DNA of 64,000 nt from Halorubrum sp. DM2 (GCF_901686465.1 NZ_LR594487.1:434001-498000), one strand, 5' to 3'; numbered from the stretch's first letter, positions 47,030-57,426 are shown. Notes: a model not told the origin generated them from the sequence alone. Made by a program: numbers and translations.

Positions 47030-48208
47030 TCAGTCGTCGGCCGTCGACCCTGATGTCCCGTCCCCGTCTGCGGTCGGTTCGTTTAGTTGGCCGGTCGTGT
47101 ACCCCTGCCAGTCGTACCTGTCTTGGAGGTACAGCGCGACCTTCACCAAGGCGAGCAGCACCGGGACCTCGATGAGGGGACCGATGACCGTCGCGAACGC
47201 GACGCCGGAGCCGACACCGAACACCGCGACGGCGACGGCGATCGCGAGCTCGAAGTTGTTGCTCGCGGCGGTGAAGCCGATCGCGGTCGTCGTCGAGTAG
47301 TCGGCACCGATCCCGCGGCCCATCCCGAAGCTCACGAAGAACATCACGACGAAGTAGATCGTGAGCGGGACCGCGATCAGGAGGACGTCACTCGGCTGGG
47401 CGACGATGCGCTCGCCCTGCATCGCGAACATCACGATTACGGTGAACAGCAGTGCGATGAGCGTGAGCGGACTAATCCGCGGCTCGAACGTCTCCTCGTA
47501 CCACTCGACGCCCTTCGTCCGCGTCCCCACGAACCGCGAGGCGATTCCCGCGGCGAAGGGGATCCCGAGGAAGACCGCGATCGCTTCGAACACCTGTCGC
47601 GGGCTGATCCCGAACTCGGAGATCCCCGCGACCAGCGACTCCATGCCCAGCAGCGGCGGGAGGACGAGCGCGAAAAACCAGATGTACACGCCGTAGGTGA
47701 GGATCTGGAAGACGCTGTTGAACGCGACGAGGCCCGCGGCGTACTCGTTCGAGCCCTCCGCGAGCTCGTTCCAGACGAGCACCATCGCGATACAGCGGGC
47801 CATCCCGATGAACACCAGCCCAAGGAAGAACTCGGGACGGGCGGGGAGTCCGGGAACGAGCCCGCTGAAGAACACGACCGCCAGCCCGAACATGAGGGTC
47901 GGCCCGATGAGCCAGTTCTGGACGAGGCTCAGTCCGAGCACCTTCACGTTCTTGAAGACGGCGGGGAGCTGTCCGTAGTTGACCTTCGCAAGCGGCGGGT
48001 ACATCATCAACACCAGCCCGATCTCGACGAGGTGGAGGTCTTGGATCGGGCCGGTGACCGACGGCGCGATGTAGCCGAGACCGATCCCGATCGCCATCGC
48101 GCCGAAGATCCAGACGGTGAGGTACTTGTCGAGGAAGTCCATCGACCGCGGGTCGCCGCATGACTCGCAGTCGCAGTTCGGTCCATGTTCGTGAACGGCG
48201 TCGCTCAC
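47030..48208 (-). CDS. acr3: Acr3-type arsenite efflux permease
   Basis: Protein of 392 residues of the BASS superfamily with about ten helices. The Acr3 hallmark is the buried Cys in [16 protein letters not shown] near residue 138; [18 protein letters not shown] is also typical. It exports As(III) (and perhaps Sb(III)). The N-terminus has an extra [15 protein letters not shown] segment (Cys12, Cys14, Cys17) that could bind As(III) or a metal. The GTG start at 48208 has a strong GGAGGTG ribosome site 8-10 bases upstream, unlike most genes here. Confidence 0.93.
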
Positions 48209-48271: not shown

Positions 48272-48288
48272 TGAGCGCTCATAATTAG
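48272..48288 (-). promoter_or_regulatory. acr3 promoter with compact operator
   Basis: The palindrome TGAGCGCTCA (48272-48281) abuts a minus-strand TATA element CTAATTAT (48281-48288). It resembles the TGARCA-N2-TGCTCA sites of the island with the central spacer lost. The transcript would have a leader of about 45 bases carrying the GGAGGTG site. Confidence 0.55.
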
Positions 48289-48305
48289 TGTATCGGAGGA
48301 GACGG

Positions 48306-48761
48306 CTACTCTTCGGCCGCGATCACGTCGAGCTGTACGTCCGCACCGCCGGGGAGCGAGCAGACGCCGACGACGGTCCGCGGCGGTAACTCGACGTCGT
48401 CGAACCGCGACTCGTAGACGTGATCGATCGCCTCCGCGGCGCTCGGATCCGTGAGCTGAATCTCGAGTTTCATCACGTCGCCAAACGTCGCGTTTCGGTT
48501 GTCGGCAAGAGCGGATTCGAGGTTGTCGAGCGCAGTCGAGAATTGCTCTTCGATTGAATGATCACCCAGAATTTGGCCGTCGACTTTGGGAAGGATACCC
48601 TCGAAAAAGCGTAGATCAGACGAGCCTGTCCGCTTCCCGAACGCTCCGATGTTATCCGTTCCGTCGCGCTGGCGCTTGCTCTCCTCGCTCAACGTTGGGT
48701 CGATGTTCATATCGGCGGCGCGATTCTTGTCCGAGTCGACTTCTGTTGTTCGCTGTCCCAT
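48306..48761 (-). CDS. RidA-family protein, copy 1
   Basis: Protein of 151 residues. The C-terminal 120 form a YjgF/YER057c/UK114 fold, ending [26 protein letters not shown] with the arginine that binds the carboxylate of imine substrates. RidA deaminates reactive enamines/imines. It has an unusual 25-residue polar N-terminal extension before [20 protein letters not shown] 48761 lies about 26 bases after the minus-strand TATA (48783-48791), so that start is preferred to ATG 48710. It is a paralogue of 55114-55566. Confidence 0.85.
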
Positions 48762-48767
48762 AATAGA

Positions 48768-48791
48768 TGAACAGTTGCTCAAGTATTAAAG
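48768..48791 (-). promoter_or_regulatory. ridA1 promoter and operator
   Basis: On the plus strand TGAACAGTTGCTCA (48768-48781) sits between the start codon and the TATA element GTATTAAAG (48783-48791). The half-sites TGAACA/TGCTCA are near-palindromic with a 2-base spacer. CATAATAGA precedes it, as in the glpF1 promoter. Confidence 0.65.
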
Positions 48792-48916
48792 CTCTTCGAA
48801 GAATTACAAGGACTGGCAGGAGGCCTGTATTTTGAACGACAAGTACGTCTGCTAAACTATCGGTATCGCTGAACGGCCCCGAGAAGGTACCGGCTGTTCG
48901 GCAGCCACACCTCGTC

Positions 48917-49684
48917 TCAGAGCAGGTGGTAGAGCCCGGCTGCGAGGAGCGCACCGAGGATCGGTCCGACAACGGGAACCCATGAGTACGCCCAGTCCGA
49001 CGGGCCTTTGTGCGGGAACGGAAGGATTGCGTGTGCGATGCGCGGTCCGAGGTCACGAGCGGGGTTGATAGCGTAGCCCGTGGGACCGCCTAGAGACAAC
49101 CCGATGCCGAGTACAACCAAGGCAATCGGCAGCGCCGAGAGCGCGCCGAGGCCGAATCCGACCTCCTGCCCGTCGATAGTGATCGTCTGAAGGATCTCGC
49201 CAGATGTCTCGTTCAAGAAGCCGGCAGAATTCAGATATAGAACGCCGAACACTAGGACGAACGTACCGATGATCTCGGTTATCAGGTTGGACGAATAATT
49301 CCGGATTTCGGGAGCGGTCGAGAAGATCGCCAGTTTCGCGCCCTCGTCCTCCGTAACCGCGAAGTGGTCTCTGTATGCCAGCCACACGACTATGCCACCC
49401 AAGAACCCACCGAGCGTCTGTGCTGCCACGTAGAGTGGGACTTGCGTCCAGTCAAATAGACCCGCGGCGGCGAGTCCTATCGTCACGGCGGGATTGATGT
49501 GACCGCCGCTGACCTGACTGATAGTGAATACGCCCATGAACACCCCGATCGCCCATCCCCACGTGATGACAATCCAGCCGCCGCCGTTCCCTTTCGTCTC
49601 GTCGAGCACGACGTTGGCGACGACGCCGCCTCCGAAGATGATGAGGATCGCAGTCCCGATGACTTCCGCGACGTACGGGTTCAT
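48917..49684 (-). CDS. Aquaglyceroporin (MIP family), copy 1
   Basis: Protein of 255 residues with six helices and both NPA loops (GGHINPAVTIG near residue 62, GYAINPARDLG near 207). Arg follows the second NPA (NPAR), as in the selectivity filter. Glycerol channels of this family also pass As(OH)3, and MIP genes occur in bacterial arsenic operons, so arsenite flux is the likely reason for its location. ATG 49684 overlaps the stop of a 27-codon leader ORF. It is nearly identical to 56659-57426. Confidence 0.9.
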   Translation of the reverse strand: MNPYVAEVIGTAILIIFGGGVVANVVLDETKGNGGGWIVITWGWAIGVFMGVFTISQVSGGHINPAVTIGLAAAGLFDWTQVPLYVAAQTLGGFLGGIVVWLAYRDHFAVTEDEGAKLAIFSTAPEIRNYSSNLITEIIGTFVLVFGVLYLNSAGFLNETSGEILQTITIDGQEVGFGLGALSALPIALVVLGIGLSLGGPTGYAINPARDLGPRIAHAILPFPHKGPSDWAYSWVPVVGPILGALLAAGLYHLL

Positions 49685-49764
49685 CTTCCACTTAGAAGGT
49701 TGCTACTGCTCGTACTCCCGGTTCGTTCCGAATTATCGCCGATTTTTGTCGTCTCCGATCTCAT
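49681..49764 (-). CDS. Short leader ORF overlapping glpF1
   Basis: ATG at 49764 opens a 27-codon frame (MRSETTKIGDNSERTG..) whose TGA overlaps the aquaporin ATG as ATGA. The start sits at the same place relative to TATA and operator as the ridA1 start, about 25 bases from the TATA, so this frame should be translated first. The polar Ser/Thr/Arg peptide has no recognisable family. Confidence 0.5.
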   Translation of the reverse strand: MRSETTKIGDNSERTGSTSSSNLLSGR

Positions 49765-49770
49765 AATAGA

Positions 49771-49794
49771 TGAGCATCTGCTCATATATTAAAA
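49771..49794 (-). promoter_or_regulatory. glpF1 promoter and operator
   Basis: TGAGCATCTGCTCA (49771-49784) is a perfect 6-2-6 palindrome, extended by one pair on each side, and directly abuts the minus-strand TATA element (plus strand TATATTAAAA, 49785-49794). A repressor bound here would block TBP/TFB or the start site. Confidence 0.7.
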
Positions 49795-49944
49795 CATTTT
49801 GAACTCCGAACAACCCCTCTCAGCGAAGGTTGTACTCCTGTATGGAGCTCTCTCACGTATCCGCGGACAACCTGACATCGGCGGCGTCGAAAACGCAGCC
49901 ATGTCGACGACCGCTCGCGTCCCACGTGTCCGCGTTAGTGTGAC

Positions 49945-50616
49945 TTATTCCGCGTACGTCTGATCGATGGTGATAGCGTCGACCGGCAGCAACTGTTTCG
50001 CGTCGCAGACGAACGCCCGCAGCCGGCGGTCGAGCTCCGGCGACGGCTCAGTCCCCGCGACGAAAATCGATAGTTCGCGCTCCGAGAGCGTTACGTCGGC
50101 GTCGAGTCCATGAAGCGCGCATAGCCCGGCCGCCCGGTCTCCATCGGGAAGTCGTTCCAAGACCGAGACTTCGTACTCCAGCGTGACGCCGGCCAACGAG
50201 TGGTTGTAATCCAGCGTGACCGTCTCCTCGTCGATCGACTCGATCACGCAGTCGCGTCCGGCGACTGAGACGGTTCGACCTGCCTCCCGCTTCTCCGGCG
50301 GGACGAGCCCCACCGGAACCGTCTCGACCTTTCGCGGGTCGCGTTCCCCGAACGCCTCCGTCGGGCCGACCCTGACCGTCGCGGATCCGCCGATGCCGGC
50401 CTCGCGAACCGCCTCCTCGACGGGTTCGAAGAGGTGTCCCTCGCCGAGGACGACGACCATCGGACCGTCGGCCTCGATCCCGACCAGGTCGGCGTCCGCC
50501 GCGACAGACGGATCGGTCGTGTCGACGACGCGGTCGCCCGCCGCCGTGCGCGCCGTGTACTCGATCCGGACGAACTCGCCGTCGTTGAGTGCGGCGGTGT
50601 GCTCGGTCACCGTCAT
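49945..50616 (-). CDS. FKBP-type (SlyD-like) peptidyl-prolyl isomerase
   Basis: Protein of 223 residues. An FKBP domain (GEFVRIEYTARTAAGDRVVDTT, VVLGEGHLFEPVEEAVREAG, LDYNHSLAGVTLEYEVSVLE) contains a SlyD-like insert-in-flap region. The last 75 residues form an extra domain. There is no signal peptide, so it works in the cytoplasm, where Tat substrates fold. Its ATG overlaps the aioA stop by four bases, which ties it to the arsenite oxidase operon, perhaps as a folding factor. Confidence 0.85.
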   Translation of the reverse strand: MTVTEHTAALNDGEFVRIEYTARTAAGDRVVDTTDPSVAADADLVGIEADGPMVVVLGEGHLFEPVEEAVREAGIGGSATVRVGPTEAFGERDPRKVETVPVGLVPPEKREAGRTVSVAGRDCVIESIDEETVTLDYNHSLAGVTLEYEVSVLERLPDGDRAAGLCALHGLDADVTLSERELSIFVAGTEPSPELDRRLRAFVCDAKQLLPVDAITIDQTYAE

Positions 50617-53192
50617 TCTGGGGCGATGTTCATCGGCTTGAAGCTCATTTCGTCTTTGACCTCGCTCTCGCCGAGGCGTCTGATCTTCCCCTTCCCGTAC
50701 TTGTAGCCGGGATTGGGATTTGCGGGATCGAGGTACGCCGGGTTGATGTCGTTGTTGACCTGGTCCGGATACAGCCAGTACGTGTACGCCAACCCCTCCG
50801 AGACGGGCTGTCCCTGAGCCGCGTCGTCCTCGTCGACGACGTAGGCGACCGCGGTAAAGCTGCCTTGGGTGTTCTCGCCGTTGATGTTGAAGACGTCGTC
50901 GTTGACGATCTCGACGAGATCGCCGGCTTCGATCCCTCGTTCGGCCGCGTCGGTGGGATGAAGCTGGAGGACGTTCTGCGGGAAGCGCTTCTGGACGTAC
51001 TCCAGCCGCTGGTGGGTGTACATGTTCTGCCAGAGGTGCTGGAGTCGGCCGTTCGTCACCCAGATCTCGTCATCGCCGGGACTGAGCCGTTCGTAGACGT
51101 CGCCGATCGTCGTCCCTTCGTCGGTGTCGACGACCCGATCCCAGTCGACACGCTGGAGGATCGCCTCGCCCGTGCTCGTGTGGAACCGGTGATCCATGAC
51201 CTCGCGTTCGCCGTCCGGGGCGTGGATTCGGGGCGTCCCCTGTACCTCGCCGTTCTCCTCGTAGATCGGCTGCTGGACGCCCTCTTCGACGGTCTCCATG
51301 TACTCGGCCGGCGTCATGTCGTTCGCTTCGGCGGCGGGCGCGATCCCTTCGAGGGAGTGATCGCCCCCGGCGCCCGGATACTCCTCGCAGATCAGGTTGA
51401 AGATCTCTCGGGAGTCGTCCCAGTCCATGTCGTCGGCACCGAGCCGTTGGCCCATCATCGAGAATATCTCCCAGTCCTCCTTCGCGCCGGAGGGGCCCTC
51501 CATGAAGCCCTGATACTGACGGAAGCGACGTTCGCCGTTCCAGCGGTGGTAATCGCCGCCCTCGCCGGATTCGACCGCCGTCGCCGGCAGGACGATGTCG
51601 GCGTATTGGGTCGTCGTGTTGGCGTACAACTCCTGATGGGTAACGACCATGCCGCCGTTCTCGATGCGCTCGCGGAATGCGCGTTCGATCTCGTCGATGT
51701 CGGCGGTCTGCGGCTGCGCGCCGCTCGTGCGCTCCCGGATCGCGTTCCGGAGATCCTGCGTCGCGTACGAGTGGCGAGCCGGATCGTTACCGATGACGTG
51801 CCAGTGTTTGATCTCCCCGTCCCTGACGCGTTCGACCGTGTTCGGCGCGACCGTCACGTCCTCGACGTTCTCGCCGTCGAAGGTCTGCGTCGAACGCTCG
51901 GCGATGGCGTCCCCCGCGGCCCCGTTCGTCCAGAAGCCCTCCTGGTGGCCCCCGGCGCGGGTGATACCGGTACCAGGGCGACCGACGCTGCCGGTGATGA
52001 GCGTCAGGTTCGCCATCGCGCCGGTGTTCTCGTGGGACCAGCCCCAGATGAGTCCCTTCTCCAGCATGAACAGCGTGTTCGTCTCCTCGGCCTCGGGCTG
52101 GGCGATGAGTTCGGCGGCCTCGCGGATCTCCTCGGCCGGGACGCCGGTCGTCTCGGTGGCGTTCTCGGGGGCGTAGCGGGGATCGTCTAAGAGATCGTAG
52201 TACTCCTCGGGCGTCAGCCCGAACTCCTCTTGGTACCACCCTTCCTCATCGATCGTCTCCCGGTTGTCCATCACCCACTCCTCGATGAACCCCTCGTCGT
52301 GCCAGCCCTGGTCGACGATGTGGCGCGCGATGGCGTTCAGGAGGATCGGGTCCGTCGCCTCGTTGACCTGGAGGTGGATCCCACCGTTGTTCTCGGCGTA
52401 GTTCGCGGTGAACTTCTTTCGCGGATCGATGAAGACGATGTCGGCGTCGCCCTCCTCGTTTATCCACTTACTGAAGATGACGTCCTGATTCTCCTTGGGA
52501 TCGGCTCCCGCCAGCACGATGGTGTCCGCCTCCGCGGCGTCCTCGTAGGCGTAGGACCACTGTGCGAGGCCGGCGTTAACGAGCCCGGGGACTTCCGTCG
52601 TGAGCGCCGGACGGTTGTGGCCGCCCCAGTTGGGCGAGCCGATGACGTCGTGACAGAGCTTCGTCCCGGCGAAGGTGTTCTCGATGAACTGATAGAAGTA
52701 CAGTTTCTGTCCGTAGCCGTTCGGGTTCTCGCCGTTCTCCGTGGCGATCTCGGTGGCCCGGGCCCACGCTTCGATAGCGGTGTCCCAATCGACGGTGACG
52801 AGATCGCCGCCGATCCGGATCTGGGGCTGTTTCAGGCGGTCGTCGTAGTCTTCGTTGTTTGGAGAGTACAGCGACTGCGCCTGCGTCCCGCCACGAATGG
52901 AGTGTGACCCCTCGTTGACCGGATACTCGGTATCGGGGACGAACAGGACGTGATACTCCCTCCCATTCTCCTCGATTATCTCGTGCATGTTCGGCGAGGG
53001 CCACTCGCCGTAGCCCGCCGGGTAGTCGATCCCGAGCGCGTTCTCGTCGGCGGTCGGGCCTCCCCCCTCGCCGACGGGCCACTTGTACACCTCGTAGCCG
53101 CAGCCGACGATACAGTACCGACACGACCGCGAGCTCCTCTCGGCGTCCGTGGGTGGAATGGGGACCTGGCTCGTGTGTGGGTTATCCGCCAT
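50613..53192 (-). CDS. aioA: Arsenite oxidase large (molybdopterin) subunit
   Basis: Protein of 859 residues. Near the N-terminus C24-x2-C27-x3-C31 (SCRYCIVGCGYEVY) and a Ser-bearing SHSIRGGTQAQ where other family members have the fourth Cys match the [3Fe-4S] site of AioA. ASPNWGGHNRPA-type and DPKENQDVIFSKWI stretches and the C-terminal MGD-binding domain are present. AioA has no own signal and is exported with AioB. It oxidises As(III) to As(V) using Mo-bisMGD. ATG 53192 starts two bases after the aioB stop; an upstream extension lies inside aioB. Confidence 0.92.
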   Translation of the reverse strand: MADNPHTSQVPIPPTDAERSSRSCRYCIVGCGYEVYKWPVGEGGGPTADENALGIDYPAGYGEWPSPNMHEIIEENGREYHVLFVPDTEYPVNEGSHSIRGGTQAQSLYSPNNEDYDDRLKQPQIRIGGDLVTVDWDTAIEAWARATEIATENGENPNGYGQKLYFYQFIENTFAGTKLCHDVIGSPNWGGHNRPALTTEVPGLVNAGLAQWSYAYEDAAEADTIVLAGADPKENQDVIFSKWINEEGDADIVFIDPRKKFTANYAENNGGIHLQVNEATDPILLNAIARHIVDQGWHDEGFIEEWVMDNRETIDEEGWYQEEFGLTPEEYYDLLDDPRYAPENATETTGVPAEEIREAAELIAQPEAEETNTLFMLEKGLIWGWSHENTGAMANLTLITGSVGRPGTGITRAGGHQEGFWTNGAAGDAIAERSTQTFDGENVEDVTVAPNTVERVRDGEIKHWHVIGNDPARHSYATQDLRNAIRERTSGAQPQTADIDEIERAFRERIENGGMVVTHQELYANTTTQYADIVLPATAVESGEGGDYHRWNGERRFRQYQGFMEGPSGAKEDWEIFSMMGQRLGADDMDWDDSREIFNLICEEYPGAGGDHSLEGIAPAAEANDMTPAEYMETVEEGVQQPIYEENGEVQGTPRIHAPDGEREVMDHRFHTSTGEAILQRVDWDRVVDTDEGTTIGDVYERLSPGDDEIWVTNGRLQHLWQNMYTHQRLEYVQKRFPQNVLQLHPTDAAERGIEAGDLVEIVNDDVFNINGENTQGSFTAVAYVVDEDDAAQGQPVSEGLAYTYWLYPDQVNNDINPAYLDPANPNPGYKYGKGKIRRLGESEVKDEMSFKPMNIAPE

Positions 53193-53193
53193 C

Positions 53194-53787
53194 TTATCCC
53201 TCCGTTTCCTCCGCGGTGACGGGTTCTCCGTCCCGTAGGTTGTCCCGGTAGCCGTACGACAGCCCGTCGACGCCCGTCGCGTAGACATCGCCGTCCTCAA
53301 CTTCGAGTCGGATCTGCGGGAGGTCCGTCGTCGCCGCCCCGCTGACGACGAGCCCGCCTTTCGAGAGGTCGAAGGTCGTGTAGTGGCACGGACAGGGGCC
53401 GGCCATCTCCCGTTCGGGTTTCACCTGTCCCTGAACGGGACAGCCCATGTGCGTACAGAGCCCGCTGAAGGCGACGATGCTGTTCTCGGGGCCGACGCCG
53501 CCCCACGCTTCGCCCGCGATACGGGTGAGGAAGTTCTCGGTGCCGTCGAGCGGGTAGGCGAACGTCTCGACGTCGCCCTCCGCCAGCTCGTCGACACTCC
53601 CAACCCGGATACGGGGATATCGTTCGAGCCCGTCGACCCGCGCGGTCGGCGACTCGGCCGGCGCGTCGCTCCCGTCGTCGGCCCGCGGAGCTTGGAACCC
53701 GCATCCTGCGACGGAGGCGGCGCCGGCCGTCCCAACGGTCGCGAGGAGCCGCCGCCGGGTCGCCGACAGAGTATCATTATCGTTCAT
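53194..53787 (-). CDS. aioB: Arsenite oxidase small (Rieske) subunit
   Basis: Protein of 197 residues. A Tat signal (TRRRLLATVGTAGAASVAGCG) carries the complex outside. Rieske ligands are C111-T-H113 and C132-x2-H135; C116 and C134 can form the disulfide of high-potential Rieske centres, which some bacterial AioB lack. It passes electrons from AioA to a periplasm-facing carrier. GGAG lies about 9 bases before ATG 53787. First gene of the aioB-aioA-FKBP operon; no cytochrome c or cupredoxin gene is adjacent. Confidence 0.92.
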   Translation of the reverse strand: MNDNDTLSATRRRLLATVGTAGAASVAGCGFQAPRADDGSDAPAESPTARVDGLERYPRIRVGSVDELAEGDVETFAYPLDGTENFLTRIAGEAWGGVGPENSIVAFSGLCTHMGCPVQGQVKPEREMAGPCPCHYTTFDLSKGGLVVSGAATTDLPQIRLEVEDGDVYATGVDGLSYGYRDNLRDGEPVTAEETEG

Positions 53788-54093
53788 GCTGTACTCTCCG
53801 ATTTAGCTTTCATACACTTGTAGTTTTCTCTTATCGAGTCGATCTGGACCAACTACGTATAAAACACCATATTATTCGGGAACACGTTGATTTTGGGGAG
53901 TGTGGTAAAGGCTCAATCCAAACCCCCTCTGAACGCATCCAAGAATAATTGAGTATTTACTGAATTAGAGGGCCACTCATCCTTGATCGCCTCCGGATAC
54001 TCGTTCCTTCCCGTGCGACGATCGGGACCGACAGCAGCTCGGGGGCTCCTTCGTCTCGCACCATCGAAGCGATCCCCCGGACACCCTTCCCAG
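53788..54093. other. AT-richer intergenic region
   Basis: Gap of about 300 bases between aioB and mobB. It is clearly AT-richer than the genes. A weak minus-strand frame (ending at 53913, with DEWPSNSVNTQLFLDAF) might be an old transposase or other gene remnant, but I cannot assign it. An upstream promoter for aioB should lie near 53800-53860; I cannot pick a convincing TATA. Confidence 0.35.
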
Positions 54094-54555
54094 TTACTCG
54101 TCGCCGCGATCCGGGGAACGTTCCGGATCGTACGACGGTAACCGGTCGATGACACGGACGACGTCGTTGAGGTCCAGATCGTCCGCTGTCACAGCTTCCG
54201 CGACTACGGGCGGCGCTACGGTCCGGTCGCCCAACGCGACCTTCGGTACGTCGCTCCCGCTAAATCCCTCGAGGATCGCGTAGTCGTACGTGCGCGCGAA
54301 CTCGTCCAACACGTCGCCGAGAGTCCGGTCCCGACCGGTCGCGAACCACGTTCCCTCGTCGGTGAGCCCGACGGTGTGGACCGCGCCGCCCGCGCGGTGA
54401 CGGGCCGTATCTTTCCCCTCGGTGTCGACATCGGGTTCGTGCGTGAGGTGTTTCACGGTCGCCACAGTCCCGCACTCCTGGAGACGTTCGGCCAAGGCGG
54501 CGACGACCGTCGTCTTTCCCGAGTCAGAGGGTCCCGCGACGCAGAGGACCTTCAT
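54094..54555 (-). CDS. mobB: Molybdopterin-guanine dinucleotide biosynthesis protein B
   Basis: Protein of 153 residues. P-loop VAGPSDSGKTTVVAAL at the N-terminus, then ATVKHLTHEPDVDTEGKDTARHRAGGA and AILEGFSGSDVPKVAL are MobB signatures. It binds GTP and aids formation of Mo-bisMGD, the cofactor of both AioA and the downstream MoCo enzyme, which explains its position between the two operons. ATG 54555 is used; a GTG three codons earlier is possible. It follows the ArsR-family gene and may be co-transcribed. Confidence 0.88.
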   Translation of the reverse strand: MKVLCVAGPSDSGKTTVVAALAERLQECGTVATVKHLTHEPDVDTEGKDTARHRAGGAVHTVGLTDEGTWFATGRDRTLGDVLDEFARTYDYAILEGFSGSDVPKVALGDRTVAPPVVAEAVTADDLDLNDVVRVIDRLPSYDPERSPDRGDE

Positions 54556-54563
54556 CCGGGTCA

Positions 54564-54657
54564 CCGCGTGTCGTCGAGGGCGGTCACGAGCGCCTCGGCG
54601 CGTCGCGTCGCCGCGTGTCGTCGAGGGCGGTCACGAGCGCCTCGGCGCGTCGCGTCG
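54564..54657. repeat. 47-bp perfect tandem duplication
   Basis: The 47 bases starting CCGCGTGTCGTCGAGG at 54564 are repeated from 54611 to 54657; a partial third similarity begins at 54658. The length is not a multiple of three, so the second copy changes the reading frame at the end of the ArsR-family gene. Confidence 0.9.
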
Positions 54658-54937
54658 CCGCGTATCGACGCGAGCGGCCGTCCTTCTCTTTCTCGACGAG
54701 TCCGGCGTCACAGAGCAACGTGAGCGCGTGGCTGACGGCGCTGTCGCTTATCGACACGTAGGGCGTGATCTCGTCGAACCTGACGGCGTCGTCGGTCTCG
54801 ACCAGCAGGCGAACGAGCCGGTACCGCGTCTCGTATCCGAACGCCGACAGCGCCTTCACGTCGACGGCCGTCGTCGCGTCGTCGATCAGGACGTCGAGAT
54901 CGGTCTCGGCCGGCGGGTCGGACGAGGACTCGGGCAT
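54584..54937 (-). CDS. ArsR-family winged-helix repressor
   Basis: Protein of 117 residues. The DNA-binding helix is ISDSAVSHALTLLCDAGLVEKEKDGRSRRY. The only Cys is in the recognition-helix region (LLCDAG), and the ELCVCDL As(III) site of classical ArsR is absent, as in many haloarchaeal relatives. It is a candidate regulator for the operator sites of the island. The 47-bp duplication replaces the probable original end (ALDDTR, then stop) with about eight further residues. GTTAATCC lies about 27 bases upstream. Confidence 0.8.
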   Translation of the reverse strand: MPESSSDPPAETDLDVLIDDATTAVDVKALSAFGYETRYRLVRLLVETDDAVRFDEITPYVSISDSAVSHALTLLCDAGLVEKEKDGRSRRYAATRRAEALVTALDDTRRRDAPRRS

Positions 54938-55113
54938 ACCGAAGGTTTCTGTCCGCGATCGGATTAACTTTTTCAGGCGCTAACTCCCCGTCGTCAAGGA
55001 GCGAACCGCGTCAGCGGTGAGCGAGTAGGGTGGGGTAGTTCACCTGTTCTGTCGATACGTCGGACGGCCGAGACGAGACGCGTTTCGTCCCGGGATCGAA
55101 CCGGACACAGCGG

Positions 55114-55566
55114 TCACTCCTCGGCGGCGATCACGTCGAGCTGAACGTCAGCGCCGCCGGGCAGCGAACAGACGCCGACGACGGTCCGCGGCGGGAACTC
55201 GACGGCGTCGAACCGCGACTCGTACGCGCGGTCGACGACCGCCGCAGCGTCCGCATCCGCGAGTTGTACCTCGACTTTCATCACGTCATCGAGCGACGCG
55301 CTGCGGTTTTCGAGCATCAGTTCGAGCCGGTCTAAGCACATCCGAATCTGCTCGTCGACCGGCTCCGACCCCTTCACGTCCCCGTTGATCTCCGGGAGGA
55401 TTCCCTGGAAGAAGACTAGGTCCGACTCCCCGGTCCGCATTCCGAACGCGCCGACGTTGTCGATGCCATCGCGCTGGCGCTTGCTCTCCTCGCTCAGCGA
55501 ATCGTCGACTGTCATTCCACGGTCACTGTTCGTCTGGCCCTTCTGCTCAACTACTCCTTGGGACAC
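55114..55566 (-). CDS. RidA-family protein, copy 2
   Basis: Protein of 150 residues, paralogue of 48306-48761; the last 26 residues are identical and [11 protein letters not shown] is shared. It has the same RidA fold and arginine. The N-terminal 17 residues (MSQGVVEQKGQTNSDRG) differ from copy 1. GTG 55566 lies about 25 bases after the TATA (55588-55595), supporting this start; ATG 55515 is an alternative. Confidence 0.83.
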   Translation of the reverse strand: MSQGVVEQKGQTNSDRGMTVDDSLSEESKRQRDGIDNVGAFGMRTGESDLVFFQGILPEINGDVKGSEPVDEQIRMCLDRLELMLENRSASLDDVMKVEVQLADADAAAVVDRAYESRFDAVEFPPRTVVGVCSLPGGADVQLDVIAAEE

Positions 55567-55571
55567 ACGAT

Positions 55572-55595
55572 TTAGTAATTGCTCAAACGTTAAAA
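55572..55595 (-). promoter_or_regulatory. ridA2 promoter with degenerate operator
   Basis: TTAGTAATTGCTCA (55572-55585) keeps the TGCTCA half-site near the TATA element (plus strand CGTTAAAA, 55588-55595), while the distal half is degenerate. Same layout as the ridA1 and glpF1 promoters. Confidence 0.5.
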
Positions 55596-55699
55596 CCCCT
55601 TTCGATCCGCTCGGTGAGCGCGGTTCTCGTGCCGTCCCCTCGTTAACACCGGTTGGGAATCGTCATGGTGTATTTATCCCCGAGGCGTCACGCTCCGGT

Positions 55700-56374
55700 A
55701 TGAACACAGAGGACGACGTACCCGAAACCGGGGGACCGGATGACGCCTCGACACGGCGTCTGTACGTCGAATTCGAAGTCGAGCCGTCGTCCTCGGCCGA
55801 CTGTCCGTTGAGCGGGTTCGAACGGGACGTCGTGGAGGTACGCCAGCAGCGGACCGCCGACCGGTGTCACACGGACGTGACGCTTTCGCCCGACGACTGC
55901 GGCTGTGCGGACGACGACTGTACCGAGGTCGTCCACGCGGCGAGCGCGGTCGGGGGCCGCTGTCCGTGCGAGGTGTTCAGCGAGTACGGCTGCGTTCCGC
56001 AGATCACCGAGATCAACGGCGACGACGTCGTCGTCGAGACGTACCTGCCCGACCGGGACGTGCTGACCGACCTCGTCGACGGCCTGAAGGCGGTCGTCGA
56101 CGGCATCTCGCTGCGGCGGCTGAAGCGGATCGGTTCGCTCGAACGAGAGGAGCCACGAGCCGACGTGACCCTCAATCTCTTCGAACTGACCGAGAAACAG
56201 CGCGAGGCGGCCGCCGCCGCCGTCGCCGCCGGATACTACTCGCGCCCCCGAGAGGCGGATCTGGGGGAGCTCTCCGCGGACCTCGGGATATCGAAGTCCG
56301 CGCTGTCTCAGCGGCTGACCGCGGTCGAGTCAAAGCTCGCCACCTCCGCCTTTGCGCGGGCGACGGCCGACTGA
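55700..56374 (+). CDS. Cys-rich Bat/DmsR-type HTH-10 regulator
   Basis: Protein of 224 residues. The C-terminal 55 are an HTH-10 domain (LTEKQREAAAAAVAAGYYSRPREADL, GISKSALSQRL). The N-terminal part holds about nine cysteines in CPLSGF, RCHTDV, DCGCADDDC, GRCPCEVF and YGCVP. Such Cys-rich Bat-like proteins include DmsR, which controls haloarchaeal DMSO respiration. The cysteines could sense redox state or bind As(III). TATTTATC (55671-55678) lies about 27 bases before ATG 55700. It probably activates genes of the island. Confidence 0.82.
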   Translation: MNTEDDVPETGGPDDASTRRLYVEFEVEPSSSADCPLSGFERDVVEVRQQRTADRCHTDVTLSPDDCGCADDDCTEVVHAASAVGGRCPCEVFSEYGCVPQITEINGDDVVVETYLPDRDVLTDLVDGLKAVVDGISLRRLKRIGSLEREEPRADVTLNLFELTEKQREAAAAAVAAGYYSRPREADLGELSADLGISKSALSQRLTAVESKLATSAFARATAD

Positions 56375-56448
56375 TCCCACGCCGAGACCGGTCCCTCAGA
56401 CGGACCGTTTCGTCGGTGATCCGTTGGTATCGATCAGAAAATAATAGA

Positions 56449-56462
56449 TGAACAATTATACA
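56449..56462. promoter_or_regulatory. Degenerate copy of the shared operator
   Basis: TGAACAATTATACA with AATAATAGA just before it matches the ridA1/glpF1 operator on its left half. A plus-strand TATA-like TATAATATT follows at 56469-56477. It lies about 200 bases before glpF2; it may be functional for glpF2 or a relic from duplication. Confidence 0.4.
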
Positions 56463-56536: not shown

Positions 56537-56662
56537 ATGCAACGGAACGCTACAACGATACACGAGCGACGACTGCGGGAACCGAGCGGACGAGTGACGG
56601 CCGAAACGACGACGACAGCTCCGCCGTCGGAGCTCACAGGGACGACCACGGGTGAGCGATGA
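56537..56662 (+). CDS. Short leader ORF overlapping glpF2
   Basis: ATG at 56537 opens a 41-codon frame (MQRNATTIHERRLREPSG..) ending in TGA that overlaps the ATG of the second aquaporin as ATGA. The peptide is polar and unlike the glpF1 leader peptide, but the arrangement is the same. Confidence 0.45.
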   Translation: MQRNATTIHERRLREPSGRVTAETTTTAPPSELTGTTTGER

Positions 56663-57426
56663 ACCCGTACGTGGCCGAGGTCATCGGAACCGCGATCCTC
56701 ATTGTCTTCGGCGGCGGCGTCGTCGCCAACGTGGTGCTCGACGAGACGAAGGGGAACGGCGGCGGCTGGATCGTCATCACGTGGGGGTGGGCCATCGGCG
56801 TGTTCATGGGCGTGTTCACCATCAGTCAGGTCAGCGGCGGCCACATCAACCCCGCCGTGACGGTCGGGCTCGCCGCCGCCGGGCTGTTCGACTGGGCGCA
56901 GGTGCCGCTCTACGTCGCCTCGCAGACGCTCGGCGGATTCCTGGGCGGCGTTACGGTGTGGCTAGCCTACAAGGATCACTTCGCGATCACGGAAGCCGAG
57001 GACGCGAAGCTGGCGATCTTCTCGACCGCTCCCGAGATCCGAAACTACGCGTCGAACCTGATAACCGAAATCATCGGGACGTTCGTGTTGGTTTTTGCCG
57101 TATTGTACCTGAACTCCGCCGGCTTCGTCGACGGGACGTCCGGCCAGATCCTCCAGACGATCACCATTGACGGACAGGAGGTCGGGTTCGGGCTCGGTGC
57201 GCTGTCGGCGCTCCCGATCGCGTTGGTCGTCCTCGGGATCGGGTTGTCGCTCGGCGGCCCCACCGGTTACGCGATCAACCCCGCACGGGACCTCGGACCG
57301 CGCGTCGCACACGCAGTCCTCCCGTTCCCGCACAAGGGACCGTCGGACTGGGCGTACTCCTGGGTCCCCGTCGTGGGACCGATCCTCGGCGCGCTCCTCG
57401 CGGCCGGGCTGTATCGGGTCCTGTAG
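56659..57426 (+). CDS. Aquaglyceroporin (MIP family), copy 2
   Basis: Protein of 255 residues, aligned end to end with copy 1 and differing at only about 20 positions. Both NPA loops (GGHINPAVTVG, GYAINPARDLG) are intact. DNA outside the coding region is not alike, and codons are GC-richer than in copy 1. It probably conducts glycerol and As(OH)3. The gene points away from ridA2 and toward the HTH-10 gene. Confidence 0.9.
   Translation: MNPYVAEVIGTAILIVFGGGVVANVVLDETKGNGGGWIVITWGWAIGVFMGVFTISQVSGGHINPAVTVGLAAAGLFDWAQVPLYVASQTLGGFLGGVTVWLAYKDHFAITEAEDAKLAIFSTAPEIRNYASNLITEIIGTFVLVFAVLYLNSAGFVDGTSGQILQTITIDGQEVGFGLGALSALPIALVVLGIGLSLGGPTGYAINPARDLGPRVAHAVLPFPHKGPSDWAYSWVPVVGPILGALLAAGLYRVL

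Follow-up and report, generated by a model that had tools for sequence, protein, structure and literature searches.

What binds the recurring palindrome at the arsenic gene promoters of Halorubrum sp. DM2, and how far does its control extend? The stretch of 64,000 nucleotides analysed here (referred to as the window) contains genes for arsenite efflux, an aquaglyceroporin, Rid-family proteins and arsenite oxidase (Table 1), and a first-pass annotation had proposed that five short strings within it share one operator. A check of the window found all five strings in place.

Table 1. Genes and operator-like sites in the window (positions counted from its first nucleotide).
Feature	Position	Strand	Remarks
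acr3, arsenite efflux gene	47030..48208	-	TIGR00832, E=2e-113; 97 bp downstream of ridA1
Compact palindrome TGAGCGCTCA	48272..48281	.	N2 spacing; matrix score 1.7
ridA1, Rid-family protein (PF01042)	48306..48761	-	ATG start set by leaderless promoter and orthologues
Second operator, inside ridA1	48555..48568	-	coding nt 194-207; score 16.5-16.7
ridA1(-acr3) promoter operator TGAGCA-AC-TGTTCA	48768..48781	-	between TATA 48784-48790 and leaderless ATG 48761
ridA1 TATA box TTTAATA	48784..48790	-	centre 26 bp from ATG
glpF1, aquaglyceroporin (MIP family)	48917..49684	-	profile search
glpF1 operator	49771..49784	-	TATA 49787-49794
aioA, arsenite oxidase large subunit	50613..53195	-	TIGR02693
aioB, arsenite oxidase Rieske subunit	53194..53787	-	TIGR02694
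Operator-like site TTGAGTATTTACTGAA	53950..53963	.	163 bp upstream of aioB
arsR3, ArsR-like protein without CxC	54584..54937	-	linked to ridA2
ridA2	55114..55566	-	
ridA2 operator, TTGAG-N6-CTAAA variant	55572..55585	-	TATA 55590-55595; top window score, 23.0
HTH_10/DmsR_N protein	55700..56374	+	profile search
glpF2 weak operator TGAACAATTATACA	56449..56462	+	just 3′ of plus-strand TATA 56438-56446

A shared operator on the 3′ side of the TATA box

By its sequence, the repeated motif is a classical ArsR/SmtB 6-2-6 operator, an inverted repeat of the form TGAR-N6-YTCA found near the TATA box or transcription start of arsenic genes. Proteins of this family bind 12-2-12 or 6-2-6 repeats (PMC8790569, PMC5658604); the TtSmtB footprint includes TTGCTCAA (PMC5658604), and the Anabaena repeats read, for example, CTGAACA-GA-TGTTCAAG (PMC8790569). 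On the gene strand of ridA1, the TATA box is followed after a few base pairs by the operator and about 7 bp further on by the start codon, and the 26 bp between TATA centre and ATG fit a leaderless haloarchaeal transcript. The ridA and glpF operators alike sit just 3′ of a TATA box, which is the placement expected for repression. The strings at ridA1, glpF1, ridA2 and acr3 had been said to abut a minus-strand TATA element; this is so for the first three. The TATA box of glpF2 is on the plus strand, with the start codon about 200 bp beyond the TATA-operator pair.

We scored the window with a matrix built from 20 distinct arsD promoter sites, all of them from other Halorubrum genomes; its conserved core was picked with the window sites known, and the independent evidence lies in the other matrix positions and in the placement beside arsR2 only. 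Among the 64,000 window positions, the ridA2 site ranked first, ridA1 fourth, glpF1 fifth and glpF2 sixth, the second and third ranks being held by the site at 53950 and by one inside ridA1. In shuffled windows, the number of positions expected to score as high per 64 kb was 0.065 for ridA1 and for glpF1, 0.00 for ridA2 and 0.07 for glpF2. The ranks bear out a common operator at ridA1, glpF1, ridA2 and, more weakly, glpF2. They do not bear it out for acr3, whose compact palindrome has 2 bp instead of 6 bp between its half-sites, scores like background and is kept in some Halorubrum only; it is a different element from the N6 operator, and its spacing and score also led us to reject it as a promoter site of acr3's own. 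The first-pass annotation had missed the copies at 48555 and 53950 and two more that lie shortly beyond the window end, one before arsD and one before arsR1.

The ridA1 promoters, in all cases found in the genus Halorubrum, keep GTTTTAATATATGARYA-N2-TGTTCATCTATTATG or close variants, with half-sites that vary among TGAGCA, TGAATA and TGAACA. At the glpF promoters of four relatives a good half-site is kept, as in glpF2, and single glpF genes in relatives show the same arrangement. These phylogenetic footprints give good support to a repressor operator shared by the promoters on the 3′ side of TATA, in keeping with the earlier suggestion that a TATA-adjacent location implies repression. From that position we infer occlusion of the core promoter, for which OxsR provides a haloarchaeal precedent and ArsR/SmtB proteins a precedent within the family.

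Counting the motif was uninformative, because the counts stand at control level. The form TGARYA-N2-TRYTCA occurs at four sites in the 3.45-Mb genome and at three in the reversed control, and relaxed versions of the pattern do not exceed the control, so that the whole-genome search shows no enrichment in total and we dropped the strict count as evidence. Where the sites lie is informative: in three of the four strict cases it is ahead of arsenic genes (ridA1, glpF1 and the arsR1 operon), and the fourth falls in an unrelated coding frame. Symmetrical 16-mers, by a pattern written with ridA2 in view, have 4 of their 12 occurrences in one 20-kb stretch that makes up 0.6% of the genome.

How many genes might these promoters serve? 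The acr3 gene lies directly downstream of ridA, in an order kept at 19 of 20 loci from other genera; its transcription probably begins at the ridA promoter, as part of one transcript with ridA1. Behind the glpF1 operator comes a leader frame of 27 codons (49764-49681), its stop overlapping the ATG of glpF1, and the promoter with the first codons of this frame resembles a ridA start; the glpF1 promoter is probably a captured copy of the ridA promoter, and because the two look like duplicates they are not fully independent evidence. In each of the three genomes whose aioB upstream region was read, namely our own and the two relatives with aioBA (L037 and L039, 155-161 bp), a site precedes aioB by 155-163 bp. 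Arsenite oxidase may thus belong to the regulon, although the site is far from the aioB start.

A probable second operator inside ridA

The site inside ridA1 is exactly 213 bp from the promoter operator and is imperfect in our genome, having a TGGG half-site. It recurs in 27 of 29 codon-aligned arsenic-type ridA genes from three families. All ten Halorubrum ridA1 genes extracted have it at coding nucleotide 194 with the 213-bp spacing, and the two sites of an eleventh Halorubrum (G142) are spaced identically; in the other families it is present in 17 of 19 full-length ridA genes, 188-221 bp from the TATA-proximal operator where the latter is present. Arsenic-type ridA genes without it occur at L254, where the gene order is kept, and at L256, where the gene after ridA is not acr3. 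The spacings (188, 212, 213, 215 and 221 bp) keep no strict helical phase (R about 0.4 over distinct values). Averaged over the codon alignment (29 genes, 430 positions), the score has a single peak of 17.2, and the next position reaches -2.6.

Might this palindrome reflect constraint on the protein, or a hairpin in the mRNA, instead of a repressor site? It does fall within a conserved stretch, L-[SN]-x-[HRL]-S-I, and any DNA palindrome can fold as RNA too. However, when synonymous codons were redrawn 20,000 times with the proteins fixed, the observed score totals of both gene sets exceeded every draw (194.6 against a maximum of 37.3, and 347.0 against 121.9), although the relatedness of the sequences means that these figures overstate independence. 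Where the operator leaves positions free the residues vary (GDHS, SGHS, NDHS, SDRS, NTHS, NGLS, SEHS, NRRS) while the palindrome persists. Among the mismatched pairs C-A is as frequent as G-U, a pattern more in keeping with a signal in DNA than in RNA, and for this reason a hairpin is not favoured. Moreover, the site is absent from ridA2 and from 20 generic RidA loci, save one match in an arsenic-island fragment. We therefore regard a by-product or hairpin as unlikely.

A repressor site in the coding region is the reading we prefer, and the intragenic operator is widely conserved and appears to be new, with a regulator of known kind. A fuller version, in which a haloarchaeal ArsR acts on a promoter operator and on a further operator about 200 bp into ridA, by a loop or an elongation block, and in which the long-kept site dictates part of the RidA sequence, is offered as a tentative proposal.

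Separately, ridA promoters in the other families often carry two tandem operators 16 bp apart (L238-L240, L242, L247, L248, L253 and L255), and in several of these genomes the second spans the start codon.

Candidate regulators

Which protein might read these sites? The likeliest binder, judged from gene content and protein sequence, is ArsR2, whose gene (G000:C1:501704-502096, minus strand) lies outside the window, 3.7 kb from its end. First, it exceeds the profile cut-offs of PF01022 (46 bits against 22) and NF033788 (85.5 bits against 55), its sequence matches to PDB structures include CadC, ArsR and SmtB, and it has an ELCVCE metal box and keeps Cys18, Cys73 and Cys75; the CxC pair (Cys73 and Cys75) is found in 47 of 47 ArsR2 sequences and Cys18 in 44. 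Second, at the ArsR2 loci of other Halorubrum the neighbouring arsD-side promoter has a TATA box and then TGAR-N6-YTCA in 23 of 24 cases, reading TTATAATTGTATGAGAGTTTGTTCAAATG or a variant. Third, orthologues are found in 29 of 30 genomes with an arsenic-type ridA. Nine of the ten Halorubrum genomes with ridA1 have ArsR2; in G089 it was not found and the operator is kept, the 3.5-kb contig ending just after arsR1, before the expected place. Among 20 such genomes from other genera, arsR2 lies within the 1.5-kb ridA flank in 17, of which 16 have the order arsR2-ridA-acr3 with arsR2 immediately upstream of ridA, and elsewhere in the remaining three. Taken as the whole explanation, As(III)-responsive repression by ArsR2 from two operators is in our judgement quite probable.

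The first-pass annotation had instead seen the obvious candidate in ArsR3, the ArsR-family protein at 54584, which could be the repressor at these sites or an arsenic-blind competitor of ArsR2. Its recognition helix (SDSAVSHAL) is nearly identical to that of ArsR2 (SDSAISHAL), so that sites may be shared; the gene stands between ridA2 and glpF at L038 and L040, and in seven Halorubrum genomes its presence tracks that of ridA2. Nevertheless, neither the protein itself nor any aligned orthologue has a CxC or an N-terminal Cys; ArsR3 is missing from three genomes that all keep ridA1 and its operator (G013, G141 and G164) and appears truncated in H. yunnanense; and its own promoter lacks the site, as had already been recognised. 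ArsR3 as chief binder is thus not supported, either role for it seems improbable, and ArsR2 fits much better.

As for the arsR3 gene itself, the match in H. yunnanense (L040 8834-9019 / L183) covers the first 62-63 residues only and is probably truncated, and in our genome the C-terminus is altered by a stretch of about 50 bp that is duplicated in tandem, almost perfectly, at the 3′ end of the gene (window 54560-54660). The HTH_10/DmsR_N (Bat/DmsR-type) protein at 55700 was rejected as regulator: in relatives L037-L040 it was not found near the operator genes, in a region reaching about 10 kb from the island.

ArsR1 (G000:C1:500286-500681), the canonical CxC repressor of the arsR1-arsP operon, was favoured at first for a strict motif copy at 500090 upstream of that operon. 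The remaining arsR1 promoters that we inspected do not preserve this strict copy, G142 alone having a partial one, and the recognition helix differs. We dropped ArsR1 because relatives show another conserved block, resembling ATCGA-N6-TCGAT, between the TATA box and ATG of several arsR1 promoters (L117-L133); this block is likely the ArsR1 operator, and ArsR1 as binder of the shared motif is very unlikely. Weakest of all, and hardly credible, is the reading of the window sites as chance, or as degenerate duplicates of a single promoter that regulate nothing, for although the motif total is not above control and the glpF1 and ridA1 promoters look duplicated, sites beside TATA boxes are kept in about 30 genomes of three families, with half-sites that vary yet remain complementary.

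Operator-like sites also occur just before arsR2 at L237, L245 and L248, which suggests autoregulation of ArsR2 in some genomes.

Comparison with known systems and a proposed mechanism

The operators resemble those of SmtB, ZiaR, AzuR and TtSmtB in their dyad, TGAA/TGAG-N6-TTCA/CTCA, which overlaps the core promoter, and in a repressor with an ELCVC box. Unlike those, they serve archaeal TATA/leaderless promoters; the gene under control has a further operator at a fixed place in its coding sequence (27 of 29 aligned orthologues), and several genomes from other families have tandem operators that straddle the start codon. In lac-type systems, the main operator at the promoter is joined by an auxiliary one that lies some hundreds of base pairs further down, within the first gene. 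ridA likewise has its second operator at a conserved place within the regulated gene; an unrelated repressor family and archaeal transcription set it apart.

Two haloarchaeal systems also bear comparison. OxsR of Haloferax volcanii (TrmB family) represses from a site 3′ of BRE/TATA and activates from one 5′ of it (PMC9426492); our sites share the 3′ placement, which for OxsR means repression, but the protein family and its CG-rich motif are different. In Halobacterium NRC-1, arsADRC and arsR2M are governed by ArsR regulators and are inducible by As(III)/Sb(III), and here too arsD and arsA occur with ArsR regulators; in the part of that account considered, these clusters are described without the ridA, glpF, acr3 and aio genes found here, and no operator sequence is given (PMC3600143).

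From the sites, their placement and conservation, the co-occurrence of genes and the cysteines, all seen directly, we infer the following course. An ArsR2 dimer would bind TGAR-N6-YTCA downstream of the TATA box and ahead of the point where leaderless transcripts begin, blocking TBP/TFB or RNA polymerase at ridA1-acr3, glpF1, ridA2 and arsDA and, more weakly, at glpF2. A second dimer, some 190-220 bp further downstream, would occupy the operator within the ridA coding region and tighten repression by cooperating with the promoter site or by blocking the elongating polymerase. As(III), held by Cys18, Cys73 and Cys75, would release ArsR2.

If so, a concrete haloarchaeal arsenic regulon would place the efflux genes acr3 and arsDA, the uptake channel gene glpF, a Rid-protein gene and perhaps the arsenite oxidase genes under the control of a single sensor. 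Among the titles listed in literature searches none was relevant to RidA in haloarchaeal arsenic biology or to intragenic archaeal operators, and we found no arsenic role described for this Rid protein. The operator in ridA, kept across three families more strongly than codon choice permits, would be a DNA-binding site that constrains a protein sequence, and it offers a place to ask whether archaeal repressors loop or act as roadblocks.

The glpF genes themselves may have a history of exchange. Once Halorubrum and Halorhabdus are set aside, GlpF1 has its nearest relatives mostly among halophilic bacteria of the Balneolaceae/Balneolales, at about 75% identity, which suggests transfer of glpF (48917-49684 and 56659-57426) between bacteria and haloarchaea.
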